A stretch of DNA of 64,000 bases, taken from Pisolithus tinctorius (taxonomy: Eukaryota > Basidiomycota > Agaricomycetes > Boletales > Pisolithaceae). Below are positions 6,462 to 59,896 of this stretch, in pieces. A model generated the notes under the pieces. The model searched no databases. It had not been told where the DNA came from and saw nothing but the letters and a program-made list of their open reading frames with translations. Position 1 is the first letter of the stretch, and every line of letters starts with the position of its first letter. Location of the stretch: positions 124,001 to 188,000 of the forward strand of contig JANFAH010000069.1 in assembly GCA_024663395.1 (NCBI GenBank), written 5' to 3'. The position numbers and the translations under genes are program-made.

Positions 6462-7481
6462 TGTGGGACACTACCTCCAGGTAGCATGTGAATAGGGGAA
6501 AGCTGTAGGGGAAATCCCTAGGCTTGACCCAAGGGGTGCTGAGTAGGAAGGAGACATAGAATGCGATGGTAGAGTCGGTCAGAGAGTCGAATGTGGGACA
6601 TGGAATTTAATTCCACAGAGTTGAAGGTAGGGATAGACTTGCTTTTGAAATTCCAGGTGATGATCTTGCACCGATGAAGTAACTCCAAGACAAATTAAGT
6701 GCACAGGAGAGGAAAACAAGGTACTAGCAGATCAAGGACACAAAAACAAAGTAGATGCAGTAGACACAAAGACACAGATATGTGGCAGACACAGAGGACA
6801 TGAAGACTCTTTGAACTCTTTAGACTTGCACAAGACACAGAGTGTGGGTCCTAAAAAGATGATTCTTATTTTGTTGCTGAGGCAGAATTATATAGTACAT
6901 GGATAGTAAGGTACTGATCAGAGAAATGTGGGGCAGGTGAAGCAAAACTCCAAAAAACAAAGGGGGCAACATGTCAGATGTCAAAGCCATACAGCAATGT
7001 GTGAAAACAAACTGTAAGGTAGTAACTGAGAAAGACAACAGGAAAGATGGGTATCTTCCAACAGGACAAGTGTACACTGTACCATAGAGTGAAATGCAAA
7101 GGGTAGAGGCCATAGGTAGAAAGGGGTTCTTGCATTGCAGAGAAAGGTTCACAGGAAAGGGATGAGAGGGGTAACCAGAGTTTTTACTGATGGTCTGCAT
7201 GGTTTCCTGGCTATGTGGCAAGGCAAGGGTTGAGGCAACACGACTGCAGAATTCCAGATAGATGTATGTCAGGTTGATGTTGACACAGAATTTTGGGACA
7301 ATGACTGGTGTGCATTATTCATGGATAGGGAAGCTCCAAAGGTTTGATGGGTGAGGTGGCACATGAGGCAGATGCATGAGGCAGATGGAATAATTCCGAA
7401 GATGACAGACATGGTTGGTAACAGCAGAATTTTGGTGTTGGCATCCCTATTTTGGCCTCAGGGAGTATACTACTCCCTACA
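6462..7481 (-). repeat. 3' LTR of gypsy B
   Basis: 1020 bp, + strand TGTGGGACAC to CTCCCTACA. It aligns end to end with the LTR at 19270-20289 at high identity, and most differences are C/T or G/A changes at CpG. The U3 end has an inverted repeat GGAGTA-TAC-TACTCC. A TATATAG-type box lies at about 6890. A degraded minus-strand reading frame (6820-7221) is only an incidental ORF of the LTR. Confidence 0.85.
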
Positions 7482-7845: not shown

Positions 7846-7954
7846 TTCAGTCACTTGTAAGCCTAAAAGCAGGTCATCCAACATGTACATTTTGTCCTGA
7901 AACTGGGACTAACCAACATTGGCTGGTGGTCCCTAGGGGTGGGTAGGCCAGACT

Positions 7955-8197
7955 GTGAAGGTGGGGTCAGCCAACCTGGCTGGAGGGGGGACCCACTGCC
8001 TGAAAGTGGGGTCGGCCGACCTGGCTGGAGGGTGGACCCACCTCCTGGAAGTGGGGTCGGCTGACCTGGCTGGAGGGTGGACCCACTGCCTGAAAGTGGG
8101 GTCGGCTGACCTGGCTGGAGTGCAGACCCACTGCCTGAAAGTGGGGTCGGCCGACATGATTGGAGGATGGACCCACCTCCTGGCAGTGGGGTCTGAC
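7955..8197 (-). repeat. 45-bp minisatellite, left inverted arm, about 5 copies
   Basis: About five 45-bp units, each containing CCCACTTCCAGG(C/A)AGTGGG in reverse complement. This is the same unit as the array at 10505-11090, in opposite orientation. Each unit has a short stem CCCACT/AGTGGG. Confidence 0.85.
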
Positions 8198-10504: not shown

Positions 10505-11090
10505 CCCAGTGAGGTCAGCCAACTCCACTTGCAGGAGGTGGGTGCATCCTCCAAACAGGTTGGCTGACCCCACTTCCAGGCAGTGGGTCTACCCTCCAAA
10601 CAGGTCAGCCTCCCCCACTTCCAGGAGGTGGGTGCATGCTCCAAACAGGTTGGCTGACCCCACTTCCAGGCAGTGGGTGCACCCTCCAAACAGGTCGGCC
10701 AAACCCACTTCCAGGAGGTGGGTCCACCCTCCAGCCAGGTCGGCCAACCCCACTTCCAGGCACTGGGTCTGCCCTCCAGCCAGGTTGGCCAACCCCACTT
10801 TCAGGCACTGGGTCCCCCCTCCAGCCAGGTCGGCTGACCCCACTTCCAGGCAGTGGGTCCACCCTCCAAACAGGTTGGCCAAACCCACTTCCAGGCAGTG
10901 GGTCCACCCTCCAAACAGGTTGGCCAAACCCACTTCCAGGCAGTGGGTCCACCCTCCAAACAGGTTGGCCGACCCCACTTCCAGGAGGTGGGTCCACCCT
11001 CCAGCCAGGTTGGCCGACCCCACTTCCAGGCACTGGGTCCACCCTCCAAACAGGTCGGCCGAACCCACTTCCAGGCACCGGCCTACCCAC
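10505..11090 (+). repeat. 45-bp minisatellite, right arm, about 13 copies
   Basis: Thirteen or so 45-bp units such as CCCACTTCCAGGCAGTGGGT plus CCACCCTCCAAACAGGTTGGCCAAA. Variants alternate AAACAGGT with AGCCAGGT and CAGTGGG with AGGTGGG or CACTGGG. Because 45 is divisible by three and the unit lacks stops in most frames, long 15-residue-repeat frames appear on both strands; I treat these as by-products. Confidence 0.92.
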
Positions 11091-11189
11091 CTTTGGGCAC
11101 CATCGGCCAACATCGGTTAGTCCCACTTTTAGGACAAAATGTACATGTTGGATGACCCACTTTCAGGCCTACAGGTGACTGAAGGGTCT

Positions 11190-12969: not shown

Positions 12970-14100
12970 CTACTCATCTGATTCGTCCAAAGGGATGCCA
13001 GTGAGTGCAGGGTCTGGTAGTGAATCGTCTTCCAAGTGATCCAAGTCACTTGCAGAAATTCCAGTCAACTGCATGACTTCGATACAAGAGTTGTTCTGCA
13101 GGAAATAGGGGTAAAGATGGAAGGCAGCAAAATGGGATTTGGACACAGCACCATCTAATTCTGCCAGGATGTACAAGCCTCCTTTGGTTTGCCAAATGAT
13201 GATCATGGGGCCTAGGTAGCGTGGTTTGGTTTTGCAATCTAGTTCTCGCTCAATGCATGAATTCCACATGAGGACGAGTGACCCAGGTTTGAAGTCGAAG
13301 TCTTGGATGGTGTGTGCAAAATGAGTGATAAAGTCTTTGACCAACACAAAGCAAGACTTCAGAATGAGATCATGGATGTGAGCAAGATCTTCTGATTGTT
13401 TCTGGAGTTGTCAAGTGCAATGGGTGATGAGTTCTGACATTGAGTAAAATTCCACCTTGAAAGGGGCTAAGAATGTCACCTTGGCAATGTCAAAGGGGAG
13501 TCTAGGTTCAATGCCATGAGCCATATAGAACAGAGAAAACCCAGTTGCCTTGTGAATCATAACCCTCTCTGCCCAGAACACTGTAGGAGCCACCTCTGAC
13601 CACTTTGATGCTTCTCTGCTGCAACTCTTTACCAATGCCTCCCTCACATTGAAATGCTGATGCTCAACAACTCCATTAGCTTGTGAGTTATAGGGTGAGA
13701 TTCGTATGTGGCAAATTCCAAAGGTCTTGGAGAGCCAATTGAGGGCGAGTACATAGGGACCACCATTATCTGTGACAATTTCTGCAACAGCACCCCAACA
13801 GCACAAGATCTGCTCGAAGATGAATTTTCTGATGGTCTTGCTGGTTTCTGTGTGAAGCATAGCCCACTCTGGATAACTAGTGAGTGAACAGCAAGCTTGG
13901 GTGATGTAGCGAAATCCATTTGACTTTGGCATTAAGAATGTGTCCATATATGCTTTAAAGAATAGGGGCTCAGGGATGGCAACAACTGGTGGAATATGTA
14001 TGCGATCCAAACAGCATATTTGGCACTTGTGACATGACTTGACATACCAGCAGATGTCCTGCTCTAGCATAGGCCACCAGAAACAAGTCAGCAACTGCAT
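12970..14100 (-). pseudogene. Integrase of gypsy B, degraded
   Basis: Frames 14100-13411 and 13347-12970 cover the HHCC zinc domain (CHKCQICC), the core with D (AYMDTFLMP), TDNGG and the E (GVVEHQHFNVRE), and the C-terminal region (KPRYLGPMIII...LAELDGAV). The catalytic triad residues are still readable, but the two parts are separated by a stop at about 13408. The frame ends in an acidic tail (LPDPALTGIPLDESDE) before the AT-rich 3' region. Confidence 0.8.
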
Positions 14101-14160
14101 GCAGGTCGAGTAGATACCCTTGTGTCCTAGCTCATCATGAGCCTGACAAAGAATCCTGAG

Positions 14161-15039
14161 TCATTTGTGAGGGGTGACTACTAGTTGGTGACATCCTTGA
14201 GGGTCTTTTCTCCACAGCTCTCCTCCTTTGATGAAATACCAAGTGGTGAGATGCACCAGGCTTTCCAACTCCCCTTCCTCCAATCCTTCTGGTGTCTTCT
14301 TCATCTCCAAAAATTCCTTCACCACTTTCAACCTCTCCTCTCTCTGGATCACTTTCTCTGAGCATGGAATTCCCATCTCATAGACACTTGGCAAGGTTTG
14401 TTTGGAGGAATAGATGCCTAGACTCTGTGACAAGACCAAAGGTGAGTCTGACAAGGTACTCAGAATTTCTGAAGGGTAAGGCTGAGACTCGAAACAGGCC
14501 TCCCTACAGTTCAAGAGCTTGACAATGAAGGCTCCACACTCATCTATCCAGTCCTCATAGTCCTCTTCCCCATCCTCATCTTCTGCTGCTTTCAGTCTCC
14601 TTGAAAGACCATCCAGCACTGCATGCTTGTGTGCAGGGACATGTATGAGCTCAAAGTTGAATAAAAGAATTCCCGCAATCCAGCAGTTGATGGTAGCGTT
14701 GGGCTGTAAGTTGAGATTGTTAATCATCCCCTTTATATCTCATGTGTCAACCTCAACAACTAAATTCCACACACCAAAAATGTGAAGTCTGACATTGTGT
14801 AAAGTGTGGAAAAGACCAAAGAGCTCCAGTTTGGCTTGGCTATAATGGCGTTCACAGTTGTTGAGAGTTATTGAGCCGAACCTTGCAGGATAGTGTTTTT
14901 CATCTTCCCCTTCCTGCATGAGGAGGTATCCTATAGCGATATTTGAGGTGTCAACTGCCAGAATGACCTTCCTATCAGAGTTGTAGTCAATAGTGCATAG
15001 CGCAGGCGATGAGATGATAGCTTGGCAAAGATAATCCAT
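14161..15039 (-). pseudogene. RNase H and connection domain of gypsy B, degraded
   Basis: 15039-14740 reads like the RNase H start of gypsy elements (VILAVDTSNIAIGYLLMQ, then ARFGSITLNNCERHYSQAKLELFGLFHTL). 14727-14161 continues with FELIHVPAHKHAVLDGLSRR and an acidic stretch EDEDGEEDYEDWIDE. A stop separates the two parts at about 14737. The order after RT and before integrase is that of Ty3/gypsy pol. Confidence 0.8.
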
Positions 15040-15102
15040 GGCTTCTCTGTGTTCATCATGGAATTCAAAGGAGACATCTTTCTTGGTCAGCTCAATGAGG
15101 GG

Positions 15103-16578
15103 TCATGTGTGCTTAGTGAAATCCTTGATAAAGATCCTGCAATATGAGCAAAGACCTAAAAATCTGTGCACTTTGGTGATGTTAGTGCAGTAGGGCCAAT
15201 CTTTAATTTTCTGGACTTTAGCCTCATCTGGAATTCTCCCCTTGAACAACACTTTATGACTGACCACTATGATAGATGGCACAGCAATGATGCATTTCTT
15301 TGCTGAGACAGTAGCTCCTCTGTGACACAGACAATGTAAGATGCAGTTGATGTTCTGCAGATGTTCCCAGATGAAGTGTCTGATCCTGGAGTTTTGTGCA
15401 ATCATCTGGTAGGTACCATCAGAATTTTGGTAATGAGATTTGGGGCCTTTGATCAGGCAGTCATTGATGAACAGGATGGTAACTTCCGGGATTTCCTCCT
15501 TCAATATCCAACAGATGTCTCCATGGAAAATCTGGACAGCGTTTGTGTAGCCCATAGGTAGTTTGGTGAGTCAAAGGGTACCAATAGGGGTTTGGAAAGT
15601 AGTAAGATCGCAGTATTTGTTGTGGATGGTGCGATGATTGTATCTGACCATAAGATCTAAAATCCTGTATACAGAGTAGCAGGTGAAAGCTTTTGCAATC
15701 GAGTTGACAAAGGGGGGAACAGCTGAATCCTGTATAGATATGGCATTCAGAGGTTGTAAGTCATGGACAAGGTGCAGAGATTTTCCATCCTTCTTGACTA
15801 TGCAGAACCATTTTGAGTGATAGGATGAAGTAGAAGGTTCATAGACACCTGTGGAAATCTTTTCTTTGATTATGCCGACAACATCATGAAAAATGGCTGG
15901 AGGTATGGGGATATTCTGCTCAACCCAGGGTTTGTGGGCTAGTGTAGGTATCTTCAGTGGTGGAAACATATCTTCTTGGAAGGTTCCTCTTTCTGTGGCA
16001 TCCCAAGCAAAGGTGGTCTCGTGTGTCTTGACCAGCCATCGCACCAGATTTAACTCCATGGGCCAGAGGAACTTTGAAGGGTCCAGGTTGAGCTTGTCAG
16101 CCCTTTCCTGGGTGAACCTGGAGCCTGGCATGAATGGAGGAGGATGAGTAGGTAATACAGGTAGGTCTGTGAGAGGATCTCCAGCCTCCCAATGCTCTAC
16201 CCAGAATTCCACAGGCATCGACATCAGTACAGGCCTGACCTTCTTCACTACAGGTTTGTATTTTAAGATATGAAGGATGGGATCAAACTGGTAAGTAGAA
16301 CGTAAGGCTGAAATTGTCAGTGGTGAAACAGTAGTGCTAGTAGAAAATAAGAAAGGGTCATTCAAAGAAATGGAACTAGAATTGAACGGGTCAATTGGGG
16401 GCATACTGTTGCTTTGTAAATTATAGAGCAATGCTGCAGCAGAATTTTGGGTAGTATCTGTAGAGAAAAGAGAAGCTGGCTTCGAAGGTAACAAGGGAGA
16501 ATCAGAAACATAGAGCAAACACATGGAGAAAATGTTATCATGGCCTCCTCGTGATCTAAATGAGTCATTGACTGACAC
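15103..16578 (-). pseudogene. Reverse transcriptase of gypsy B, active site lost
   Basis: 16578-15571 holds the region upstream and the first RT motifs (SKWFCIVKKDGKSLHLVHDLQPLNAI), and 15555-15103 the rest. The catalytic motif expected as (F/Y)xDD reads FINDC, so one of the two metal-binding Asp residues is Asn. A stop interrupts the gene at about 15568. The enzyme is dead. Confidence 0.85.
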
Positions 16579-19269: not shown

Positions 19270-20289
19270 TGTGGGACACTACCTCCAGGTAGCATGTGAA
19301 TAGGGGAAAGCTGTAGGGGAAATCCCTAGGCTTGACCCAAGGGGTGCTGAGTAGGAAGGAGACATAGAATGCGATGGTAGAGTCAGTCAAAGAGTCAAAT
19401 GTGGGGCATGGAATTTTATTCCACTGAGTCAAAGGTAGGGATAGACTTGCTTTTGAAATTCCAGGTGACAATCTTGCACTGACAAAGTAACTCCGAGACA
19501 AATTAAGTGCATGGGAGAGGAAAACAAGGTACTAGCAGATCAAGGACACAAAAACAAAGTAGATGCAGTAGATGCAAAGACACAGATACGCAGCAGACAC
19601 AGAGGATGCGAAGACTCTTTGAACTCTTTAGACTTGCACAAGACACAGAGTGTGGGTCCTAAAAAGATGATTCTTATTTTGTAGCTGAGGTGGAATTATA
19701 TAGTACATGGATAGTAAGGTACTGATCAGAGAAATGTGGGGCAGGTGAAGCAAAACTCCAAAACTCAAAGGGGGCAATGTGTCAGATGTCAAAGCCATAC
19801 AGCAATGTGTGAAAACAAACTGTAAGGTAGTAACTGAGAAAGACAACAGGAAAGATGGGTATCTTCCAACAGGACAAGTGTACACTGTACCATAGAGTGA
19901 AATGCAAAGGGTAGAGGCCATAGGTAGAAAGGGGTTCTTGCATTGTGGAGAAAGGTTCGCAGGAAAGGGATGAGAGGGGTAACCAGAGTTTTTACTGATG
20001 GTCTGCATGGTTTCCCAGCTATGTGGCAAGGCAAGGGTCAAGGCAACACAGCTGTGGAATTCCGGATAGACATATGTCAGGTTGATGTTGACATGGAATT
20101 TCAGGACGATGACTGGTGTGCATTATTGATGGATAGGGAAGCTCCAAAGGTTTGATGGGCGAGGCAGCGCATGAGGCAGATGCATGAGGCAGATGGAATA
20201 ATTCCAAAGATGACAGACATGGTTGGTAACAGCAGAATTTTGGTGTTGGCATCCCTATTTCGGCCTCAGGGAGTATACTACTCCCTACA
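19270..20289 (-). repeat. 5' LTR of gypsy B
   Basis: 1020 bp, pair of 6462-7481. On the minus strand it starts TGTAGGGAGTAG and ends GTGTCCCACA. A minus-strand TATATAA box lies at about 19695-19703. The primer site follows internally. Confidence 0.87.
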
Positions 20290-25134: not shown

Positions 25135-26993
25135 TGTCACACACCAAAGGTGTTGTGGACATGGTTACAGCTGACTCTGCCTAACTCGTTGACGAGTTGC
25201 GCGCAATGCCCAAGCATGCAGATGAAGACTAAAGGCCTCATGCGTAGAAAGACTGTTGGACGTGAACAGTCATCCTTCGCACAAGAACGAGTCGTCAGTG
25301 CTAAAGAGAAAAGAGGAAGCGAGTTAAGCGCGCATTAAAGGTTTTTAGCGCCCATGTACGGCATTCCGGTTTTCGTCGTATCTCCACCATTTCCAAAGAT
25401 ATCGACTCCGTTCCCATGCTCGCTTAAAGTGCTCAGCCCCACGATTCTTCCTTCCAAATTTGGAGAGGATCCTCGCACCCTGCGTGTTTCTACAGCACTC
25501 CATCCATCAGACACTCATTTCGCAAAGTCCATCAATCATGGCCACCTCTTCGTCGGTCATCTCGCTTGTCTCATTTGCCAGAGACAGTGGCTACGTATAT
25601 CTGCCAGGCATTCCCACCAGCTTCCGTCCTGAAGCCCCCTGGTTCATCCCGTCATTGTCAGCCCCGTCTCATCCCATGCAGCTTGGTCAGCGTGTTCTCC
25701 TTGTCAGTATGACTTCCAGAAGGACGTTCTTTGGTCGCCTCAGGTCTGTCACTCAGTTAGAAAGGTCTTATGTGGTCGTTTCAGTCTCCCCAGTTGATGA
25801 AGCATATGGATCGTTCCTCCCTGCTCCATGCACCGTCTTTATTCCAGTCTCGTCCATCATTCTTCCTGCATTGCGACAGCTGCAGTATAATCTACTGTCC
25901 TCCAGCCTCCCTGATCGCATTCATGACGAGTATGACATGCATCTTGCCTTCCTACTGCAAGATCCAGCAGAAGACATCCCCCCTTCTCCTCCTCCTCCAT
26001 CAGAGCCCCATTCATGAAGTTTTTGTTAACTTCGCTGAGAGGATGGAAGGGTGGGAGACACGATCGCGTATGCTCTCATTGCCCCACAGACCCCCAATGC
26101 CCTAGCCCCCTTTGACACCTGACTCATGCCCTTCAATTCTGGAATTAATACTTCCCTATCTGGAAACACCGTCCATCTGTCATGCCGTCTTTGGATCTAG
26201 AGATGTCTCCGCCGAGATCTGACTTGCATCGCCACCCCCTAATGTGATATCAGTGTGCTTACTCAGTTTCTGACTCTATTTGACTCATTCTGTGATATTT
26301 TGACTATCCTTGACTCGTTCATTGCCAGTACTTACCAATCCTCCTTGCTTGCTTACTTATCATTTCTCGCTTACTCATCATGATTACTCAGTCCTTACTC
26401 ATTACTTACCAAGTGTTTGTGCCTTGTTTGTCACAAGCAGTGCTCCCCCCTCAGTATATAAACCCCCGTGTACTTAGCTACCCACAATCAATCAATCAAG
26501 AATCAATCAGGAATCAATTCAGAAGTCATCCAGCAGTCAGTCCAGAGCCTATCTCGTCGTCGACAGTTGAGGCTCCACGAAGGGGTCTATCTGTCATCAT
26601 TCATATCCTTGGTAGTTGAGGCTCATTCGGAAGAGTCTATCTACCACCATTATCTGAAGCTCCATCCCCACTTAGTCAGCAAGTCTTGCTTAGTCATCCT
26701 CCCACTCCTGCATAACTCGTCATCAACTTGTGCAAGGAGCACATTTACTTGAAGTCCATTACTTGAAGTACCTTTCGGCTGAACACCTTCGCTCTGTTCA
26801 GCGTCCCCTTCTCAGTCCCTCTCCTGCGTAACTCGTCGTCGACTTGCGCTAGGAGCACCTGCCATTGAAACTCCCCCCACTTTAGGTTTCTCTGCACTCC
26901 AGGTTCCGCGGAGGCAAACCACCACTCGCTTTTATTTGTCTTTTGGTGTTGGATTTGTTTGGTTTTCACCAGCATTCCACACTTTGACTCACA
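25135..26993 (+). repeat. Family L LTR, copy 1 (1.86 kb)
   Basis: TGTCACACACC to TTTGACTCACA, ends TG...CA. It matches 57096-58945 over its full length and, in part, 56437-57095 and the minus-strand copy 53213-56436. A TATATAAA box at about 26452 with a CCCCCGTGTAC start region marks the U3/R limit. Near the 3' end are two tandem duplications of about 60 bp (GTTGAGGCTC...GTCTATCTRYCATCATTCAT type). The flanking bases (CATGC left, CCGGG right) do not match, so it is not a simple solo LTR. Confidence 0.75.
25538..26017 (+). CDS. LTR-encoded 159-aa protein, family L copy 1
   Basis: Unrecognised protein inside the U3 part of the LTR, upstream of its TATA box. The start MATSSSVISLVSFARDSGYV is chosen because the ATG (context ATCATGGCC) and the length are the same in copies 57499-57978 and 56257-55778. 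It has no signal peptide, a predicted beta-rich middle (QRVLLVSMTSRRTFFGRL, RSYVVVSVSPVDEAYGSF), a helical stretch (LRQLQYNLLSSSLPDRIHDE) and a proline-rich acidic tail. Three copies keep exactly 480 bp without stops although they differ at many bases. It may be an accessory protein, a domesticated ORF, or part of a longer transcript; the function is unknown. Confidence 0.55.
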   Translation: MATSSSVISLVSFARDSGYVYLPGIPTSFRPEAPWFIPSLSAPSHPMQLGQRVLLVSMTSRRTFFGRLRSVTQLERSYVVVSVSPVDEAYGSFLPAPCTVFIPVSSIILPALRQLQYNLLSSSLPDRIHDEYDMHLAFLLQDPAEDIPPSPPPPSEPHS

Positions 26994-34879: not shown

Positions 34880-35331
34880 TGTTATGTTTCACCCCTAACT
34901 TTTCCTTTTCTGTTGTACGTTTACCTTGTTTGTGTTCCGTTGGACTTAGTTTCCTTTTAGAGCCATCTTCTTTCTGATCCGACGGCTCTCTATTTCCACC
35001 ATTAGCGTTACTGGCTCAATACATGCTTAGGACATGTGTCGTCATTGTTCAACCAATGGCATAGTTACCTCGTTACATGCAGACGCCTCATGGTCCATTT
35101 CTGTGTAGTATTTAAACTGCCGGCTCAAGTCCTGGAAACCCAGACTTGAGCTGCTCAATCATACGCAGCGTTCTCAGAACTTCGCCCTCAGTGTCCCTTA
35201 CAAGGACCACTCTTACCGGCATTGCCCTAAATCCTCAGTCGTTTACTGAGGTTACTGCAGCCGTTGCTCAGTAGAAACCTTAGTCTGCAATTTGAGCTCT
35301 CCCTATGTCTTGACTTCGGTCGAGCGTAACA
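34880..35331 (+). repeat. 5' LTR of gypsy A copy 2
   Basis: 452 bp, TGTTATG to GCGTAACA. TATTTAAA at 35109-35116; AGACTTGAGCT at 35142-35152, about 33 bp downstream, is where transcription should start. It differs from the 3' LTR at about 20 positions, of which all but one are C/T or G/A changes at CpG. Confidence 0.95.
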
Positions 35332-42178: not shown

Positions 42179-42630
42179 TGTTACGTTTCACCCCTAACTT
42201 TTCCTTTTCTGTTGTACGTTTACCTTATTTGTGTTCCATTGGACTTAGTTTCCTTTTAGAGCCATCTTCTTTCTGATCCAATGGCTCTCTATTTCCACCA
42301 TTAGTGTTACTGGCTCAATACATGCTTAGGACATGTGTCGTCATTGTTCAACCAATGGTGTAGTTACCTCGTTACATGTGGACGCCTCATGGTCCATTTC
42401 TGTGTAGTATTTAAACTGCCGGCTCAAGTCCTGGAAACCCAGACTTGAGCTGCTCAATCATATGCAGTGTTCTCAGAACTTCACCCTCAGTGTCCCTTAC
42501 AAGGACCACTCTTACCAGTGTTGCCCTAAATCCTCAGTCGTTTACTGAGGTTACTGCAGCTGTTGCTCAGTAGAAACCTTAGTCTGCAATTTGAGCTCTC
42601 CCTACGTCTTGACTTCAGTCAAGCGTAACA
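42179..42630 (+). repeat. 3' LTR of gypsy A copy 2
   Basis: 452 bp, TGTTACG to GCGTAACA, preceded by the polypurine tract AAAGGGGG. Target duplication CATCC follows. Confidence 0.95.
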
Positions 42631-43294: not shown

Positions 43295-43633
43295 TGTTAG
43301 GAATAATGCGTGCGTGGTGACTGAAGTTGGAGTGATTAGGTACAGGCGAGGTTGTGCAAGAGGGTGCTCGGTTTAAGGCTCAGCGTGCTCAGGCAGGGAT
43401 GCGGGTCGACGAGGTGACGTTCTCGTCTCATAGGGATTCTATCCCCTGCGGTAGCTACCTTATATCTACGTCGTATATTTGATATCTCGTCTGTTGGGGC
43501 GCGTCCACCCCTACTCCTGCCTTTGTATTTTTTGCTTTGTTTGTCCCCTTCTTGGGGTTATGACATATCTCCCGCGCCCTCTGCGCGTCATCGTTTCCTT
43601 ATTTGGGTGTGACGGCGGATTGGTATTCCCACA
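43295..43633 (-). repeat. 3' LTR of the copia element
   Basis: 339 bp. The + strand runs TGTTAGGAAT to TATTCCCACA. On the minus strand the tract GAGGGGGAG directly before it is the polypurine tract and overlaps the pol stop. Confidence 0.96.
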
Positions 43634-43640
43634 CTCCCCC

Positions 43641-46600
43641 TCAAGCCGGGGTCATACCCAAGGCTTCTCTGTTATGTTCGTGTTTCGGTCTGGTTAATGC
43701 TTTAGTGAAGATATCGGCCGTCATTTCGACCGTAGGGCAATATTTTAAGTCAATTATTTCTCTCTTCGCGCAGTCGCGAATAAAATGGTTTTTAGTATCA
43801 AAGTGTTTTGATCTTTGGTGGTATTGCGCATTTTTCGCGATTGCTAGCACTGATTGATTGTCGCCGTATAGCCTTGTGGCCTCTAATTGTGGGCGATCTA
43901 GCTCACTTAGCAGGCTTCGTAGCCATATGATTTCGCGTGTTGCGTTTGCCATCGATATGTATTCGGCTTCTGCCGTGGAAAGGGCCACGTGATTCTGTTT
44001 CTTTGAGTACCACGTGATCGCACCCTGGTTGAAGGCGGATACGTAGCCTGAGATTGATATCCGATCGTCGTCATTAGCGAAGTCGGCGTCTGAGTACATA
44101 ATTAATTTATTGTGTTCGGGATGAGTTGGGTCAGCCTTATAGGCAATCCCATAGCTTTTAGTTCCCGCTAGATATCTTAGTATTCTTTTTGCTGCTGTCC
44201 AATGGGACAAGTCGGGATTTGCCGTGAAGGATGCGAGTCTATTGACCGCATACGTTATATCGGGCCTCGTGGCCACTGATGCATACATTAGGTGCCCTAT
44301 GAGTGTTGCGTAGTTGCCGCTAGGTACACCTTCGGCCTCGGTGTCACGTGGGCTTAGCCGCGTGCCCGGATCGAGTGGAGTTTTGACTGGGTTTGCGTCG
44401 GTCATTCCATATTTTTGTAGTAGTCCCTCGATATAGCGTGTTTGGCCGAGGGTAATTGTTCCACTGGTGCGATTTCGTGTGATCTCAATCCCAACTAGTT
44501 TACTTGGGTCTCCGAGGTCTGTTACCTCGAACATATTTTGTAGTTGTAATTTTAATTTAGTCATAAGTTCGGCAGTGTTGGTGACGAGTACTAGGTCATC
44601 TACCCATACCGTAATGATCTCGATCGTAGTCGAGGTTTTTCTTATGTATACACATGGATCGGAGTGGAGTCGAGTGAAGCCGACGGTTTGTAACTGGCCA
44701 TTCAGCTCTTCGTTCCACTCTCGTCCGGATTGTTTCAATCTGTATAATGTTTTAATTAATTTGCATAAGCGTCCGGTTTCGTCGTCGAAACCTTCGGGCT
44801 GCTCCATGTATATTTCTTCTTTTAGTTTACCATTTAAATATGCGCCCTTTACATCCATTTGTTGGATTTCCCAGTTTTGGGCGTTGGCCAATGATAAGAT
44901 AAGGCGTATTGTTTCTAGTCTAACGACTGGGGAATAGGTATCGTTGTAATCCATTCCCGGGACCTGGGAATACCCCCTGGCGACTAATCTCGCCTTGTAT
45001 TTCTGGAGTACCCCGTCCCTGTCATATTTTCGGGTAAACACCCATTTATTTGATATGGGCTTACGCCCCTCTGGTGGATCTACTAATATCCATGTCCCTT
45101 TTTCTCGTAATTGTTGTAATTCGGCCTCTATGGCCTTTTGCCATTCCGGCCACTCAGGTGAGGCTTTAGCCTCTTGTAGTGTTTTGGGGTCGCCTTCCCC
45201 CAGTGTGCTTTCATTGAATGCTAAGTACACTTGCTCCGCTGACGAGAGCTCGCGATTCTCCGACGTTTGCTCACCGTCTAGTAATTCGTCCAAATCGGGT
45301 AATGGATCGTTCAACACGTTGTAATCGTGTGACATCCGGATCCTTTTGCTTCGCCTCATGGGCTCGTCAGGTGACTCTGTTTGTTTCCGTTTTGATCCCG
45401 CTTTATCGCTGGCGGTTCTTTCTTCCTCTCCTCCAGTGTCTCCCCCTGTAGTTGGCAGGTCTCGAGGAGGCGAGTCGGTCTCTGGATGGAACCGGTAGTT
45501 TCTCGAGGTACGTATTTGTCTTGTGCGTGTGTCGAAGTACTGAACAGCGCGCGGGCCATCTAGGAAGCCCACAAATGGGTGCGCGTGCGATCTCGCATCC
45601 AGCTTGGAGATCGTTTGGTGCTCGTCGAGGATCCACACGCGTGTTCCAAACTCTTGCAAGTGTGATACGTCGGGCTCTTGCCCATACCATCCCTCATAGG
45701 GCGTTCTTTCATAGGTGCGTGTCCATGCGCGATTGCGCACATAAACTGCATGACTTACGGCTTCGCACCACAGGAACCTCGGCATGTCTCTTGCCAGTAG
45801 CATCGCTCGTCCAAGCTCTACGACGGTGCGATTGAATCGCTCAGCTACGCCGTTCTGGGATGGCGAGTACGGTGCCGTAGGTTCTAACAGTATTCCTTTT
45901 TCTTTGCACCATGTTATCAGTGCGTTGTTGATGTATTCGGTCCCATTATCGCATCTGATTCGTTTAGGGAGTGTGTCTTTCTGTCTTTCCAACATCTGCA
46001 CGTATTCTTTCACGCGTTCTGTTGCTTCCCCCTTTTGTTTCATGTAGTACGTCGTAGCGTACCTTGTTGCATCATCGATAAATGATATATAGTATCGATG
46101 ACCATGTATGGATGTCGTACGTGACGGCCCCCATACGTCTGTATGAGTTAACTCTCCCGCTGCCGAGGCCCGATGGGTTGCCTCGGATGGGTGAGGTTCA
46201 CGTGTCTGTTTAGTGGCAGTGCACGCTTCGCAATTGAAATCGGGCGAGTTCGGATCGACTTCGAACCCTTTCACTAACTTCTTATGGAACAGGCGGCGCA
46301 GTCCGCTTATCCCAATATGGCCAAAGCGTTTATGCCATGTTTTCCACGAGGTTGTTTCACCAGCGAGACTGGTTTGCTCGCTCCTCGTAGGTACTGTAAA
46401 TTGTAGCTCGTATAAATGATTTTTCCGCTTCCCCAGTGCGATGACGTCCCCTGAGGAATTGCGCAACTCGATCTGTCCTCCTCCACTGATGGAGCGGCCA
46501 CCTTGTGCATCTAAGCGGCCAATTGAAAATAGATTGTTAGGCGATGACGGCACATGTAACACATCGCGTAAATTAACGGTGACTGTCCGGTCACCTATTT

Positions 46601-48032
46601 GGCTATTCACCGTGACTGTACCACGTCCGGGTACGGCAGCTGGCTTGGTCCCTATCCCGGAGACTGTTTTGTCCGGTAGTACCTCGTAGGTAGTAAATGC
46701 TTCGCGATGAGCGCAGATGTGCGATGTTGTAGCACTATCAGCCAACCACACGTACGCAGAATAAGCCTCTGATTTGGGGGACTTTGTATCTACACTTTCG
46801 GTAGAGGAGAATGCTACATCGTCTTTGGAGTCCGTATTCTCCACCGCGCGATGCGCCTTATCTGATCGTCCGGAGCGTTTACTAGACCGCTTCCTATCCC
46901 GATCTCTATCCCGGTCTCTATCCCGGTCTCTAGATCTCTGTCTTCGCCGTTTATCTTTGTTATCCGGGTTGGTCCAACACTCCTGAGTGGTGTGGCCAAA
47001 CCGTCGGCAGTGTCCGCATTTAGGTTTATTCTTGAAGCGGCACTCGGAGGTTTTGTGATTGGTGCGACCGCATATGTCACACGGGCCCAGATGGTTGGCC
47101 TTTCGTTTATTGCTCCCGCCGCTCTTGGCGTAGTACCCACTCTCTCCGCCTTCACGCTTGCGGCGTTCCCATTCAGTGCGGAGTAATGATATTATCTCTT
47201 GCGTAGATATCTTTGTTGTTTGTGAGTGCGACCCTCCGAGGAAGCCGGAGGTATAGCTATCCCACGAGGTAGGGAGTGACGACAACAACACGGCCTGGAA
47301 CTGGGGATCAGGCATGACGTCACCCATTTCATACAGCCGGTTCTGCAAGTCGCGTAGTCTAGTGATATGATCGGGGAGGTCCGTATCCTCCTGCGCCTTG
47401 AGGCCATAGATCTCGCGCCTAATAGCGGCGATGGACTGCTGGCCCTGGGTTTCGTGTACCACGTGTAGATTACGCCACAATGTGGCACTGGTCTCCGTTT
47501 CTGATTGGGCATGTACGGTCTGATCGTTAGCGAGGTTTGCCATAAGCGTCGCGTACGCGTGTTTGTCACGTTTCCGCCAGGCATTCAATTCGTCCGGTAG
47601 GGTCTCGGATGGCTGTGGGTCGTCCCCTGTCACCATCTCGTACAAATCTTGGAGCCGAAGTACGGCGGCGATCTTCTTTTTCCACGCTGCCCAGTTATTA
47701 GAGGTGAGCTTCTCCGTCTTGACTATTTTCATTTCTCCCTCTCGTCCTCTTTCTCTAGACCTGGCTCGTCCCTTCCCCTTCGACAACGCCGTCGTCGACG
47801 TCGAGGACCCATCGATGACTGGGCCCGGTCCTGTCGGTTGCGACGAGGGCCCTGCAACTGTGGGCGAACCTATTGGTGAGTTGGACGTTACCTGAGGCGT
47901 CCTCGAGGCTCTAGCTGACGCTATCGGTGCTACAGGTGAGGACAGCGTCGGTTCATTGGTCTGTGCGTTAGGGGGTCCGTCCCCTTCGGGCGTCGTGCCT
48001 CGCGGATTGGCCGGCGCCCTTGCTCTCGACAT
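43641..48032 (-). CDS. Copia gag-pol polyprotein, 1463 aa, intact
   Basis: Single frame, as in most Ty1/copia elements of fungi. In order: Ser/Pro-rich N-terminus, gag core (about residues 100-300: NNWAAWKKKIAAVLRLQDLY), two zinc knuckles (CDICGRTNHKTSEC, CGHCRRFGHTTQEC), an RDRDRD-rich stretch, protease (WLADSATTSHIC), pre-integrase HH..CC (HKRFGHIG...CEACTATK), integrase core with D (THTDVWGP), D (RCDNGTEY) and E (NGVAERFNRT), RT with WVDDLVLV in place of YVDDxLL, and RNase H (YSDADFAND, STAEAEYIS, YGDNQSVL). All catalytic residues are present and no stop interrupts. The start is the first ATG, 101 bases inside the LTR. The stop TGA touches the polypurine tract. Confidence 0.96.
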   Translation of the reverse strand: MSRARAPANPRGTTPEGDGPPNAQTNEPTLSSPVAPIASARASRTPQVTSNSPIGSPTVAGPSSQPTGPGPVIDGSSTSTTALSKGKGRARSRERGREGEMKIVKTEKLTSNNWAAWKKKIAAVLRLQDLYEMVTGDDPQPSETLPDELNAWRKRDKHAYATLMANLANDQTVHAQSETETSATLWRNLHVVHETQGQQSIAAIRREIYGLKAQEDTDLPDHITRLRDLQNRLYEMGDVMPDPQFQAVLLSSLPTSWDSYTSGFLGGSHSQTTKISTQEIISLLRTEWERRKREGGESGYYAKSGGSNKRKANHLGPCDICGRTNHKTSECRFKNKPKCGHCRRFGHTTQECWTNPDNKDKRRRQRSRDRDRDRDRDRDRKRSSKRSGRSDKAHRAVENTDSKDDVAFSSTESVDTKSPKSEAYSAYVWLADSATTSHICAHREAFTTYEVLPDKTVSGIGTKPAAVPGRGTVTVNSQIGDRTVTVNLRDVLHVPSSPNNLFSIGRLDAQGGRSISGGGQIELRNSSGDVIALGKRKNHLYELQFTVPTRSEQTSLAGETTSWKTWHKRFGHIGISGLRRLFHKKLVKGFEVDPNSPDFNCEACTATKQTREPHPSEATHRASAAGELTHTDVWGPSRTTSIHGHRYYISFIDDATRYATTYYMKQKGEATERVKEYVQMLERQKDTLPKRIRCDNGTEYINNALITWCKEKGILLEPTAPYSPSQNGVAERFNRTVVELGRAMLLARDMPRFLWCEAVSHAVYVRNRAWTRTYERTPYEGWYGQEPDVSHLQEFGTRVWILDEHQTISKLDARSHAHPFVGFLDGPRAVQYFDTRTRQIRTSRNYRFHPETDSPPRDLPTTGGDTGGEEERTASDKAGSKRKQTESPDEPMRRSKRIRMSHDYNVLNDPLPDLDELLDGEQTSENRELSSAEQVYLAFNESTLGEGDPKTLQEAKASPEWPEWQKAIEAELQQLREKGTWILVDPPEGRKPISNKWVFTRKYDRDGVLQKYKARLVARGYSQVPGMDYNDTYSPVVRLETIRLILSLANAQNWEIQQMDVKGAYLNGKLKEEIYMEQPEGFDDETGRLCKLIKTLYRLKQSGREWNEELNGQLQTVGFTRLHSDPCVYIRKTSTTIEIITVWVDDLVLVTNTAELMTKLKLQLQNMFEVTDLGDPSKLVGIEITRNRTSGTITLGQTRYIEGLLQKYGMTDANPVKTPLDPGTRLSPRDTEAEGVPSGNYATLIGHLMYASVATRPDITYAVNRLASFTANPDLSHWTAAKRILRYLAGTKSYGIAYKADPTHPEHNKLIMYSDADFANDDDRISISGYVSAFNQGAITWYSKKQNHVALSTAEAEYISMANATREIIWLRSLLSELDRPQLEATRLYGDNQSVLAIAKNAQYHQRSKHFDTKNHFIRDCAKREIIDLKYCPTVEMTADIFTKALTRPKHEHNREALGMTPA

Positions 48033-48133: not shown

Positions 48134-48472
48134 TGTTAGGAATAATGCATGCGCGGTGACTGAAGTTGGAGTGATTAGGTACAGGCGAGGTTGTGCAAGA
48201 GGGTGCTCGGTTTAAGGCTCAGCATGCTCAGGCAGGGATGCGGGTCGACGAGGTGACGTTCTCGTCTCATAGGGATTCTATCCCCTGCGGTAGCTACCTT
48301 ATATCTACGTCGTATATTTGATATCTCGTCTGTTGGGGCACGTCCACCCCTACTCCCGCCTTTGTATTTTTTGCTTTGTTTGTCCCCTTCTTGGGGTTAT
48401 GACATATCTCCCGCGCCCTCTGCGCGTCATCGTTTCCTTATTTGGGTGTGACGGCGGATTGGTATTCCCACA
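48134..48472 (-). repeat. 5' LTR of the copia element
   Basis: 339 bp, pair of 43295-43633; target duplication GGCAG follows at 48473-48477. Confidence 0.96.
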
Positions 48473-52950: not shown

Positions 52951-53191
52951 ACAAGCATTAGTACAGAGCGAGCAGGAGGAGCTGCTGGAGGCATGGGTGG
53001 ATAAATAGCAGAGGTAGTAGATGACATAGAAGCGAGATATATGGTGGATTTACAGGCAAGACTTGATGGGATAAGGAGAATAGGAGTTGGGATTGGAAAA
53101 GTGATGGATTTTGGCAATTATGACAACCTAGGAGGCAGGAATATGAAGGATGCAAACATGAACAAGGTTTTTCTTGATCCAGGAATGACCA
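52950..53191 (-). pseudogene. Leader and gag start of a family L element
   Basis: Directly after the primer site the minus strand has a leader and then ATG at about 53035 (MSSTTSAIYPPMPPAAPPAR), a proline/alanine-rich start that breaks off into the cassette array at about 52950. The rest of the element is missing. Confidence 0.45.
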
Positions 53192-53210
53192 CCCCTCGTG
53201 GTGGGCTCCA
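53192..53210 (-). promoter_or_regulatory. Primer-binding site of family L element
   Basis: Minus strand TGGAGCCCACCACGAGGGG, two bases after the LTR end. Nearly identical to the gypsy B site at 19245-19263. Confidence 0.6.
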
Positions 53211-53293
53211 GATGTGAGTCAAAGTGTGATTCAGTGGTGAAAACCAACCAAAACCAACACAAAAGACAAAAAGAGCAAGTGGTGGTGTGCCTA

Positions 53294-54895: not shown

Positions 54896-55777
54896 TATGT
54901 GGTACCTAGATGGTAGAACCTGTTCTTTGGGAGGATTTTTGCGAGCTACAACACTCAAAGATGAGTGCTGAGGGTTGGGGGTGCTCCTGACGAAGGGGGA
55001 GCAAGAATACGAGAGAATGCAATGGGGTAGACTGCTGTCAGCCTACTGAAGGATGGAGGACAACTTAATTTGATGTCCTGAGCTGCACTGAGCTCAGGGA
55101 GGACTTGGAGCAAAGCTGATTGATGATAGATGATTATAAGTGAAGCAGACAGTAGTTAGACCCTTCATAAAGTCTCAACTATCAAGGCTGATGAATGAAT
55201 TACTGAGTGATGATGAAAAATGCAAGCAAGAGGGGCTCTCTGATGTCTTCTTCTTATTCAGCTATCTAAGTACAGTGATTTATATACAGTACAGGGGTGT
55301 TGCCTATGGAAAACAAGGTGCAAACACTTGGTAAGTGATTGGTAACTGATGAGTAAGGAATGTAAGCGATGGGTAATTGTCTTAGAAAGCATTGGTAAGC
55401 GCTGGTAAGGATAAGTAAGCCAAAAAGTGAAGAATCAGTAAGCAAAGTCAAAAGATTGGTAAGTATTGGCAATAGGTGAGTCAAGGACAGTCAGAATGTC
55501 AAAGTATGAGTCAACTAATGTCAGGAACTGGGAAAGTGCACTGGAATCACATTAGGGGGAGGCTGTGCATGTCACATCTTGAAGAGATTGCCTTTGGGCC
55601 AAAGTGGGATGACAGGGAGGCAGTGCTGATCTGATGCTGATATAGTACATCCAAAAGCAGACAGGGCGAGTCAGATGTCAACAGGGGTCAAGCTTTGGGG
55701 GTCTGTGGGGTTACAGGAGCATAGGGGATCACAACTTTCCCCCCCAAACCATCCTCTCAGTGAAGCAAATAAAAACT

Positions 55778-56257
55778 TCATGAATGAGGCTCTGTTGGAA
55801 GAGAGGATGAAGGGGGAGCATCTTCTGCCATATCTTGCAATAAGGAGGCAAGATGTGCATCATACTCATCATGGATGTGATCAGGGAGAGTGGAGAACAG
55901 TAGATTATACTGTAGCTGTCGCAATTTTGGAAGAATGATGGATGAGACTGGTATAAAGACATTGCAGGGAGCAGGGAGGAAGGATCCATATGCTTCCTGG
56001 ACTGGAGAGACTGAAACAACCACATAAGACCTTTCCAAGCGAATGACAGACCTGAGGTGACCAAAGAATGTCCTCCTAGAGGTCATACTGACAAAAAGAA
56101 CATGCTGTCCAAGCTGGACAGGCTGAGAGGGGGCAGACAAGGATGGGATGTACCAGGACACTTCAGGACAGAAGCTGGTAGGGACTCCTGGTAGATATAC
56201 ATAGCCATGGTCCCTAGCAAAGGGGACAAGTGAAATGATTGATGTGGAGGTGGCCAT
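55778..56257 (-). CDS. LTR-encoded 159-aa protein, family L copy 4
   Basis: Same length (480 bp) and no gaps against 25538-26017, starting MATSTSIISLVPFARDHGYV. It differs at many residues (for example FCPEVSWYI for FRPEAPWFI, KLRQLQYNLLF for ALRQLQYNLLS), so it is the most divergent copy, yet still open. Key shared blocks: VSMTSRRTFFG, RLERSYVVVSVSPV, EAYGSFLPAPC, FIPVSSIILP. Function unknown. Confidence 0.55.
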   Translation of the reverse strand: MATSTSIISLVPFARDHGYVYLPGVPTSFCPEVSWYIPSLSAPSQPVQLGQHVLFVSMTSRRTFFGHLRSVIRLERSYVVVSVSPVQEAYGSFLPAPCNVFIPVSSIILPKLRQLQYNLLFSTLPDHIHDEYDAHLASLLQDMAEDAPPSSSLPTEPHS

Positions 56258-56436
56258 ATCAGAAGAATTAGCAAAATGAGCATCTTTTGGAGGGAGTGCT
56301 GTAGAAATGTGTGGAGTGCACAAATCCTTTCCAATTTTGGAAGGTAGGATCACATGGCTGAGCACAACAAGCGAGTGTGGGAATGGTTTTGGTATCTGCA
56401 GAAATGGCAGAGATACATTGAAAACCAGAATGCCGT

Positions 56437-57095
56437 TGTCACACACCAAAGGTGTTGTGGACATGGTTACAGCTGACTCTGCCTAACTCGTTGACAAGTT
56501 GTGCACAATGCCCAGGCATGCAGATGAAGACTAAAGGCCTCATGCGTAGAAAGACTGTCAGATGTTAACAGTCATCCTTTGCACAAGAATGAGTTGTCAG
56601 TGCTAAAGAGAAAAGAGGAAGCAAGTTAAGCGCACATTAAAGGTTTTTAGCGCCCATGTACAGCATTCTGGTTTTCGTCATATCTCCACCATTTCCAAAG
56701 ATATCAACTCCATTCCCACACTCGCTTAAAGTGCTCAGCCCCATGATTCTTCCTTCCAAATTTGGAGAGGATCCTCGCACCCTGTGCATTTCTACAGCAC
56801 TCCATCCATCAGATGCTCATTTCACTAAGTCCATCAATCATGGCTGCCTCTTCATTGATCATCTCACCTGTCTCATTTGCCAGAGACAGTGGCTACATAT
56901 ATCTGCCAGGCATTCCCACCAGCTTCCGTCCTGAAGCCCCCTGGTTCATCCCATTGTTGACAGCCCTGTCTCATCCCATGCAGCTTGGTCAGCATGTTCT
57001 CCTTGTCAGTATGACTTCCAGAAGGACATTCTTTGCTCGCCTCAGGTCTGTCACTCGGTTAGAAAGGTCTTATGTGGTTGTTTCAGTCTCCCTGG
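56437..57095 (+). repeat. Family L LTR, copy 2, 5' part only
   Basis: Starts TGTCACACACC and is cut at 57095 by the next copy. It contains the ATG of the internal frame (56840) and its first about 83 codons (MAASSLIISPVSFARDSGYI), ending in a short fusion with copy 3. Confidence 0.75.
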
Positions 57096-57145
57096 TGTCA
57101 CACACCAAAGGTGTTGTGGACATGGTTACAGCTGACTCTGCCTAA
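56840..57145 (+). pseudogene. Truncated LTR-encoded ORF, family L copy 2
   Basis: Frame identical in register with 25538-26017 through RSYVVVSVS, then it runs into the start of LTR copy 3 and stops at 57145. No internal stop before the truncation. Confidence 0.5.
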
Positions 57146-58945
57146 CTCGTCAATGAGTTGCGCACAATGCCCAAGCATGCAGATGAAGACTAAAGGCCTC
57201 ATGCGTAGAAAGACTGTTGGACATTAACAGTCATCCTTTGCACAAGATCGAGTCATCAGTGCTAAAGGGAAAAGAGGAAGCGAGTTAAGCGCGCATTAAA
57301 GGTTTTTAGCGCCCGTGTATGGCATTCCAGTTTTCGTCATATCTCCGCCATTTCCAAAGATATCAACTCCATTCCCACACTCGCTTAAAGTGCTCAGCCC
57401 CACGATTCTTCCTTCCAAATTTGGAGAGGATCCTCGCACCCTGTGCATTTCTACAGCACTCCATCCATCAGATGCTCATTTCACTAAGTCCATCAATCAT
57501 GGCCACCTCTTCGTCAATCATCTCGCTTGTCTCATTTGCCAGAGACAGTGGCTATGTATATCTGCCAGGCATTCCCACCAGCTTCCATCCTGAAGCCCCC
57601 TGGTTCATCCTGTTGTTGTCAGCCCCATCTCATCCCATGCAGCTTGGTCAGCGTGTTCTCCTTGTCAGTATGACTTCCAGAAGGACGTTCTTTGGTCGCC
57701 TCAGGTCTGTCACTCGGTTAGAAAGGTCTTATGTGGTTGTTTCAGTCTCCCCTCTTGATGAAGCATATGGATCGTTCCTCCCTGCTCCCTGCACCGTCTT
57801 TGTTCCAATCTCGTCCATCATTCTTCCCGTGTTGCAACAGCTGCAGTATAATCTACTGTCCTCCAGCCTCCCTGATCGCATTCATGATGAGTATGACATG
57901 CATCTTGCCTTCTTACTGCAAGATCCAGCAGAAGACATCCCCCCTTCTCCTCCTCCTCCATCAGAACCCCATCCATGAAGGTTTTGTTAACTTCACTGAG
58001 AGGATGGAAGGGTGGGAGACATGATCGCATATGCTCTCATTGCCCCACAGACCCCCAATGCCCTAGCCCCCTTTGACACCTGACTCATGCCCTTCAATTC
58101 TGGAATTAATACTTCCCTATCTGGAAACACTGTCCATCTGTCATGCTGTCTTTGGATCTAGAGATGTCTCCACCAAGATCTGACTTGCATCGCCACCCCC
58201 TAATGTGATATCAGTGTGCTTACTCAGTTTCTGATTCTATTTGACTCATTTTGTGATGTTTTGACTATCCTTGACTCGTTTATTGCCAATACTTACCAAT
58301 CTTCTTTGCTTGCTTCCTTTTCATTTCTCACTTACTCATCATGATTACTCAGTCCTTACTCATTACTTACCAAGTGTTTGTGCCTTGTTTGTCACAAGCT
58401 GTGCTCCCCCCACAGTATATAAACCCCCATGTACTTAGCTACCAAGAAGTGAATTCAGAAGAAGTCCAGCAATCAGTTCAGTACCTATCTCGTCGTCAAC
58501 AGTTGAGGCTCCACGAAGGGGTCTATCTGTCATCATTCATATACTTGGTAGTTGAGGCTCATTCGGAAGAGTCTATCTACCACCATTCATTATCTGAAGC
58601 TCCATCCACACTTAGTCAGCAAGTCTTGCTTAGTCATCCTCCCACTCCTGCATAACTCGTCATCAACTTGTGCAAGGAGCACGTTTCCTTGAAGTCCATT
58701 ACTTGAAGTACCTTTCAGCTGAACACCTTCACTCTGTTCAGCATCCCCCATCCAATCATCACTCATTCATCTTCTCCTGCGTAACTCATCGTCAACTTGC
58801 GCCAGGAGCACCTCTACTTGAAGTTCCCCCCACATTTAGGTTTCTGCACTCCAGGTTCCGCGGAGGCACACCACCACTCGCTCTACATTTGTCTTTTGTG
58901 TTGGTTTTGGTTGGTTTTCACCACCTTTCCACACTTTGACTCACA
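57096..58945 (+). repeat. Family L LTR, copy 3, full length 1850 bp
   Basis: TGTCACACACC to TTTGACTCACA; matches copy 1 end to end. TATATAAA at about 58420. CTGG adjoins both ends, but the left neighbour is LTR copy 2 and the right one is gypsy A copy 3, so a simple insertion does not explain it. Confidence 0.78.
57499..57978 (+). CDS. LTR-encoded 159-aa protein, family L copy 3
   Basis: 480-bp frame aligned without gaps to 25538-26017. It starts MATSSSIISLVSFARDSGYV and ends SPPPPSEPHP. Differences from copy 1 are few and mostly conservative (VSPVDEAYGSF to VSPLDEAYGSF, FIPVSSIILPAL to FVPISSIILPVL). It lies upstream of the LTR TATA box, so it would need its own promoter or an antecedent read-through. 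Function unknown. Confidence 0.55.
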   Translation: MATSSSIISLVSFARDSGYVYLPGIPTSFHPEAPWFILLLSAPSHPMQLGQRVLLVSMTSRRTFFGRLRSVTRLERSYVVVSVSPLDEAYGSFLPAPCTVFVPISSIILPVLQQLQYNLLSSSLPDRIHDEYDMHLAFLLQDPAEDIPPSPPPPSEPHP

Positions 58946-59896
58946 CTGGTACCACCTCCCATCTTCCCCACACACCCACCTCCTCCACAGAATATGATGT
59001 CTGGTTCATCGTTGAAAGCAACAGTCAGCAATGCCACCAAAGCTACTGAACTGAAGATTGGTGCTCCAACTGAATTTGATGGAGACCAAAAGAACGCTAT
59101 GAGTTGGCTGTACTCTGTACAGACCTATCTCCTAGTCAATGAAGAATTATACAACACTGACACCAAAAAGGTAGTCTACACCTTGTCATACATGAAGAAA
59201 GGTGTTGCCCATTCCTGGGCTGCCACCTTCCAGGAGACTTCTCTGGAAAAGAACCCCCCAAGCTTCGGTACCTTCACTGATTTTGTGAAAGACTTTAAAA
59301 ACTCTTTCACATCTGCCAACACCACCGGTACTGCAATTGCCAAGTTGTGTACCATGAAACAGAAAGAGTCAGTTGAACAATATATCACTGACTTTCGAAC
59401 TGCCACCGCCGATTCCACTATCATGGAAGATGTCACATTGATTGAGTTCTTCTCTCAAGGACTCAAACCATTCATTGCAAACAGAATCCATATGATGGAA
59501 ACCACTCCCACTAAAATAACCAAGTGGTACATGCAGGCACAAAAGTTTGATGCCAAACAGAGAAAAGTCAATGAATTCTCTGGAAAGAAAGAAAAGAAGG
59601 CGTTCCACCCCAGGAACAGCTTCACTGAAGAAAAAGACCCCAATGCCATGGACGTAGATGGGGTTAGACTCTCTAGAGAAGAAAGAGACCATCACATCAA
59701 AGAAGGAAGATGTTTCAGTTGTGGAAACAAAGGCCATCTCTCACGGGAATGCCCCGACAAAGGCAAGACTCCCCACAAGACAGTCAAGAAGATCCGCAAA
59801 ATTGTGGAAGTAGAAGAAAGCGACAATGAAGAAAAAGTCACTGGTCCATCCATCGCCTTAGTAAATATCGCTCGGGCCCTTGGAAAGGATTTTTGA
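58946..59896 (+). pseudogene. gag: gag of gypsy A copy 3, N-terminally truncated, otherwise open
   Basis: 317 codons in frame from the LTR junction; internal Met at 58994. Capsid-like core (FDGDQKNAMSWLYSVQTYLL) and an intact CCHC zinc knuckle CFSCGNKGHLSREC, followed by a basic and acidic tail to GKDF and TGA at 59894-59896. It shows that the TGA inside the knuckle of copies 1 and 2 replaces Arg. Confidence 0.85.

Follow-up and report, generated by a model that had tools for sequence, protein, structure and literature searches.

Long terminal repeat and its coding frame

The 64,000-nt stretch of DNA analysed here, from the ectomycorrhizal mushroom Pisolithus tinctorius (contig JANFAH010000069.1, positions 124,001 to 188,000; hereafter the window) contains a long terminal repeat (LTR) of a retrotransposon family, here called family L, that spans exactly 25135–26993 on the forward strand, starts with TGTCACACACC and ends with TTTGACTCACA. 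In its U3 region, upstream of the TATA box, lies a 480-bp open reading frame (ORF), which we regard, with a probability of about 0.8, as an accessory gene placed wholly inside the U3 part of an LTR that belongs to a recently active Pisolithus Ty3/Gypsy element. The LTR and its frame had been pointed out in a sequence-only reading of the window, whose coordinates proved exact (the TATA box starts at 26455), and the three copies that it listed as open and of equal length were all confirmed (Table 1). Two subfamilies of the LTR are represented, copies 1 and 2 belonging to subfamily A and copy 3 to subfamily B. The protein of copy 2 (P0002) is 93% identical to that of copy 1 (P0001), and that of copy 3 (P0003), already described as diverged, is 81% identical.

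The frame is open for 63 further codons upstream in subfamily A. A longer protein was rejected and the start at 25538 was kept, because a different frame is read there in P0004 and in the B-like locus L059. No ORF of at least 150 residues on the minus strand over the gene is present in the ORF list, and Rfam gave no match within the LTR at E ≤ 1. Two short blocks upstream of the gene are conserved, and the one that contains TTTCTACAG, situated 37–51 nt ahead of the start codon, resembles in sequence a 3′ splice site (acceptor); among the donor patterns tried in the leader, none was present in at least six of the ten elements described below. Downstream of the gene, the stretch up to the TATA box holds six TGACT motifs against 0.79 expected, with a maximum of four in 500 shuffles, for a motif that was picked after the sequence had been read. 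These motifs presumably resemble bZIP sites, and the stretch is the probable promoter region of the element. The TATA box itself starts at the 438th base past the ORF in 26 of the 29 subfamily-A copies. The frame has few purines (37%), and this composition may account for the absence of lysine from the A protein in 29/29 copies; the 30 B copies have one or two lysines.

Purifying selection on the frame

Selection was measured as the ratio of nonsynonymous to synonymous substitution rates (dN/dS), pooled by the Nei-Gojobori method over 29 A and 30 B copies (870 pairs; 22 and 27 distinct sequences, respectively). A duplicate locus (L001) and two edge matches were left out before these counts, a second reading of the B copy in the window and one truncated copy were also removed from 61 copies to give 59, and the duplicate loci on contigs C79 and C21 were both retained. 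Between the subfamilies dN/dS is 0.233 (codon bootstrap 0.14–0.36, 157 codons), within A 0.291 (0.13–0.48), within B 0.425 (0.26–0.69), and for the window pair 25538/56257 0.19 (0.11–0.30). The other two forward frames give 1.12 and 1.60 between subfamilies, while the reverse frame with the common codon position 3 gives 0.33, as expected from the shared third positions. Differences between subfamilies at codon positions 1, 2 and 3 are 0.128, 0.103 and 0.294, respectively. Moreover, sliding 477-nt windows (10 × 10 copies) place the dip only in the frame of the gene and over the gene, and those lying entirely downstream of it give 0.55–0.95. Thus the selection on a protein that the sequence-only reading had supposed is borne out, the ratio being low only in this frame and at this place, also when the frame is set against its flank. 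Along the protein, dN/dS is 0.18–0.20 for residues 1–112 and 0.36 for the tail.

The DNA around the frame had been described as decayed, and it is indeed the more diverged: in 60-nt bins the divergence between subfamilies is 0.12–0.26 where the bins touch the ORF and 0.20–0.68 outside it, with 0.14 in the opening 60 nt of the LTR as the exception. Inside the frame there are hardly any gaps between the subfamilies. An alternative reading, in which the frame owes its openness to chance or to the youth of the copies and U3 is only regulatory DNA, would agree with the low age of nine of the ten element pairs examined and with the short U3 blocks conserved outside the frame. However, the subfamilies are about 23–30% apart in most of the upstream flank and yet have an identical start, length and frame, and the bias to codon position 3 and the ratio of 0.23 against 1.1 and 1.6 in the other forward frames speak in the same direction. 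We consider this explanation scarcely credible, a chance frame being ruled out by dN/dS together with the frame and position controls. The ORF is almost certainly a real protein-coding gene under selection. When the ten elements were compared with each other, dN/dS was 0.132 for gag, 0.231 and 0.234 for two pol pieces (the second from nine elements, one having been dropped for a gap) and 0.306 for the LTR gene; selection on the LTR frame is nearly as strong as on pol.

Copies in the genome

The genome searched comprises 92.5 Mb in 221 contigs. With the A protein as query, 150 of 2062 candidate places were scored, 148 stop-free and two with a stop; with the B protein, 150 of 2056 were scored, 31 with one stop. 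Stops are therefore rare overall and commoner in subfamily B. Since these lists were ranked by protein match and so favour intact proteins, a second sample was chosen by the downstream flank only, with the 423 nt downstream of the gene as query and the best 40 of 1437 candidates taken. The frame is open in 37 of these 40 copies (32 of 35 fetched and 5/5 already analysed); of the three failures, two have a stop at codon 113 and the third is broken. Among 33 flank-picked copies (the 35 fetched minus the broken one and one with a codon gap) dN/dS is 0.33 (0.19–0.59). In addition, the gene is open in all 20 LTRs of the ten paired elements, and each of the 31 loci of subfamily B and its relatives has LTR sequence next to the frame.

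The assembly duplicates some loci, for example the elements on C79 and C21, which have identical flanks, so the copy counts overstate the number of independent insertions. Such duplications may add to the 92.5 Mb of the present genome, which is another assembly or strain than P. tinctorius Marx 270 v1.0, given as 71.0 Mb (PMC5689174). Of the minority variants, 112 of 456 in A but only 96 of 960 in B are changes of the CpG-decay type, which is at most a hint of DNA methylation in A.

The Ty3/Gypsy element

Ten LTR pairs were fetched, nine of them distinct since those on C79 and C21 share flanks. Nine pairs are spaced about 9.5–9.8 kb apart and that on C97 13.7 kb, with pol interrupted. Of their 20 LTRs, 19 start with TGTCACACACC and 18 end with TTTGACTCACA, and the sequence right after the LTR starts with TCTGGAGCCCAC. 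The 4-bp target duplications match in seven of the ten elements (on C79/C21, C5, C2 (two), C97 and C7; loci L009–L028), six of these being independent, and differ in two; that of the tenth could not be judged, its LTR being truncated. The independent duplications are GCGT, CCGG, TCGC, GCGC, ACGC and CCGG, with CG central (NCGN) in 6/6, which suggests from the sequences that integration prefers CpG; CTGG is found at the 57096 copy of the window. In one element, scanned in five pieces of which two were matchless, the domain order is protease, reverse transcriptase, RNase H and integrase, the Pfam matches being, in order, Asp_protease_2 (below the curated cut-off), a partial RVT_1, RT_RNaseH, Integrase_H2C2 and rve. 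Its gag frame matches DUF4100, and no chromodomain is among the Pfam matches of its integrase piece. The U3 regions of nine pairs show 0–7 differences over 883 nt (the tenth has the truncated LTR), and so the family has transposed recently. The element that the LTRs bound is of the Ty3/Gypsy type and was active not long ago.

Relatives of the protein

A database search gave 11 proteins, of which two come from short JGI contigs and nine are NCBI records of P. orientalis, P. tinctorius, P. albus and P. microcarpus, annotated as stand-alone proteins. Profile searches brought 56 relatives (15 Pisolithus records) and then 295 at E ≤ 10, of which 120 were listed, nearly all from ENA or JGI contigs, which we took as metagenomic. 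Among the matches listed, the organism-named relatives are only hypothetical proteins of Pisolithus, and for this reason repeat masking may hide such LTR genes. No Pfam domain in the relatives is among the matches listed, no relative was found on viral contigs, known protein families gave no match, and a Tudor profile matched none of 43 members at E ≤ 1. Judged by sequence, the protein belongs to no described family within reach of the searches made.

By eye, the alignment of the relatives falls into three groups. Some clusters are large (137, 64 and 41 members), as repeats would give. Furthermore, 28 of 148 proteins had the start motif and the length set for a test of their upstream extensions, and in 11 of these 28 the extension matches U3 5′ of the Pisolithus gene (tblastn E ≤ 1e-3, best 7e-7); most of these matches hit just 1–3 of the 59 copies, and one shuffled set gave 0. 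Thus these relatives may also sit in such U3, a setting that may be common to them. A recently captured host gene fragment, functionless for the element, would be consistent with the lack of a match among known families. Against it stand the selection between subfamilies, the occurrence of relatives in several species and sources, and the fact that every fetched copy checked sits in this LTR, a search for a lone host gene having extended only to the 150 best places scored per search; we consider such a capture very improbable.

Four public models (P0006, P0007, P0012 and P0014) are without 18 residues of the protein. P0007, from P. tinctorius, matches by eye the locus L095 (C3:3958380–3958960) except for a modelled intron, a 54-nt GT...AG stretch at the missing residues, where the GT donor arises because codon 52 is TGT; this codon is CGT, CAT or CAC in 58 of 61 rows and TGC in three. 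The modelled intron was accordingly not accepted as a sign of transcription.

Predicted structure, expression and possible function

The structure model (predicted local distance difference test score, pLDDT, 76.6; block means 84–92 across residues 11–100) consists of a helix and a small SH3/Tudor-like β-barrel (about residues 44–103). The structure-based search that had been proposed with the sequence-only reading did return fold matches, which are weak and suggestive only, Tudor-like folds being tied with ribosomal L25-type and other barrels. The likeness to Tudor and other SH3-like small barrels thus lies in the predicted barrel and is without a sequence match. The first guess from sequence had been an Sm/LSm fold; no Sm chain stood out among the matches listed, which proves nothing. 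Descent from the integrase end of the element itself and from the SH3 piece of a Copia element in the window was also considered, and neither gave a match, with shallow profiles that make this a weak test.

With the TATA box located 3′ of the gene, the RNA of the element would start past the 5′ copy and would hold only the copy of the 3′ LTR, as the last cistron near its end. Reverse transcription would copy the 3′ U3 into both LTRs, so that the gene would stand at each end of an insertion and persist in solo LTRs. We give about even odds that the gene is made in this way from the 3′ LTR and not from a private promoter in U3. Expression from a private promoter, by which every LTR including the solo ones would yield a dispersed trans-acting factor, agrees with the nine NCBI records of stand-alone proteins, the solo LTRs with an intact frame in the window and the conserved block just 5′ of the start, and appears to us somewhat less probable: a freely shared factor should leave weak selection on each copy, whereas the ratio found is near that of pol. 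This argument is modest, as the products of gag and pol can be shared too. The selection near the level of pol suggests that each copy benefits from the product it makes itself.

The protein would most likely bind a protein or ribonucleoprotein (RNP) partner in the nucleus, and would aid the element either in being expressed, perhaps through an action against silencing, or in being targeted. Only by inference do we rank a regulator or anti-silencing factor first and a targeting or packaging factor second, the former as a tentative reading and the latter as a rather unlikely one. As a targeting or packaging factor, the barrel would read a chromatin or RNP mark and steer integration or RNA packaging, in place of the chromodomain that other Gypsy elements have in their integrase. 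The weak Tudor-like fold matches, the integrase piece without a chromodomain among its Pfam matches and the central CG in all six independent target duplications would fit this role. However, the CG preference may stem from the integrase itself, the protein has no similarity to the integrase end of the element (in a shallow comparison), and it would be awkward for a targeting domain to be supplied as a protein of its own that is encoded 5′ of the promoter. If the protein counters silencing instead, a model for it would be VANC, the anti-silencing proteins of plant DNA transposons, which belong to a different class of element. Should it counter silencing or steer insertion, this would help explain the high copy number of the element. 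That a retrotransposon family of forest-soil fungi encodes a trans-acting Tudor-like anti-silencing (or targeting) protein within the LTR itself is a speculative proposal, to which we attach a low probability; if it is true, each insertion and solo LTR would be subject to silencing and would at the same time supply the protein that counters it, and hundreds or more dispersed regulatory genes would have been seeded in the host genome.

Other features of the window

The window holds no complete element of LTR family L, only solo or broken LTRs and 42 nt of internal sequence (Table 1).

Table 1. Copies of the family L LTR in the window and the features of its U3 region
Feature	Position	Strand	Remarks
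Solo LTR, subfamily A	25135–26993	+	TG...CA ends; 4-bp sides differ (ATGC / CCGG)
Conserved block AGTGCTCAGCC	25428–25438	+	Each base conserved in ≥ 90% of the 59 copies
Conserved block TTTCTACAGCACTCC, 5′ of start codon	25487–25501	+	Contains TTTCTACAG, kept in 57/59 copies
Gene copy 1 in U3, protein P0001	25538–26017	+	159 codons and stop, open
Gene-to-TATA stretch	26018–26454	+	Six TGACT motifs
TATA box (TATATAA)	26455–26461	+	
Remnant	53171–53292	−	Terminal 80 nt or so of an LTR (53213–53292) and 42 nt of internal start (53171–53212)
LTR fragment, subfamily B	55434–56436	−	
Gene copy 3, subfamily B, protein P0003	55778–56257	−	159 codons and stop, open
5′ part of a further LTR, fourth copy	56437–57092	+	Cut inside the gene by insertion of the 57096–58945 LTR
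Solo LTR, subfamily A, second copy	57096–58945	+	CTGG on both sides (57092–57095, 58946–58949)
Gene copy 2, protein P0002	57499–57978	+	159 codons and stop, open

Other retroelements are also present. A Gypsy element has 452-bp LTRs at 34880–35331 and 42179–42630, 95.6% identical, and its internal region is 82% like the stretch 58955–64000, which starts just past the LTR end at 58945 and is without a DNA match to the interior of family L. The Copia element at 43641–48032 on the minus strand, flanked by 339-bp repeats (43295–43633 and 48134–48472), is young, since these repeats are 98.5% identical and its polyprotein of 1463 residues (gag, integrase, SH3 and RVT_2) is uninterrupted. A 1-kb direct repeat (6462–7481 and 19270–20289, 94.4% identical, about 12.8 kb apart) encloses a pol stretch on the minus strand (13072–16260) that has stops and is 39% like the pol of family L; together they are probably an old related element. 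At 10506–11078 and 7953–8193, repeats occur in copies shifted against each other by multiples of about 45 nt, and both strands have long frames (10589–11113 and 10636–11178).

Comparison with known systems

In the literature searched, which left most subscription papers outside its coverage, we found no fungal retrotransposon described as having a conserved gene within its LTR; the 'LTR ORFs' of PMC12037069 are polyprotein frames. Several retroelements have extra genes elsewhere. ORF0 of the grass elements Retrosat2, RIRE3 and RIRE8 is likewise an extra gene of unassigned role in a long-LTR element, but it lies upstream of the gag-pol ORF and is not described there as part of the LTR (PMC3485330). 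The antisense TRP28 ORFs of the plant Retand elements also encode an extra conserved protein with a supposed accessory role, and they are situated between pol and the 3′ LTR, unlike the U3 gene (PMC11963269). The ORF3 types of bdelloid elements are extra to gag and pol and supposedly accessory as well, whereas their env-like, GDSL esterase and DEDDy exonuclease domains are not seen in the U3 gene (PMC5408684).

The nearest parallel is sag of mouse mammary tumour virus (MMTV) and related betaretroviruses. LTRs are ordinarily held to be non-coding; sag is an accessory gene in U3 that survives in solo LTRs, purifying selection has been detected among its copies, and three kinds of start are given for its messages, at the U3/R junction, inside env and inside U3 (PMC4667437). 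The two cases are alike in having a gene in U3, intact here in both LTRs of all ten pairs, and in purifying selection. They differ in that the majority of sag lies in U3 (PMC4667437) and the whole of the gene here, in that promoters have been described for sag, and in that a mammalian betaretrovirus is compared with a fungal Gypsy element. The likeness to a mammalian retroviral accessory gene that the sequence-only reading had drawn therefore stands for position and not for kinship of the proteins: no sag relative is among the matches listed in the protein searches, no direct alignment with sag having been made. An LTR with a selected gene is thus found in a fungal Gypsy element, with a protein of an undescribed family, and it provides a case of a retroelement gene that outlasts recombination to solo LTRs. 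This suggests that a sag-like layout arose outside the mammalian retroviruses.
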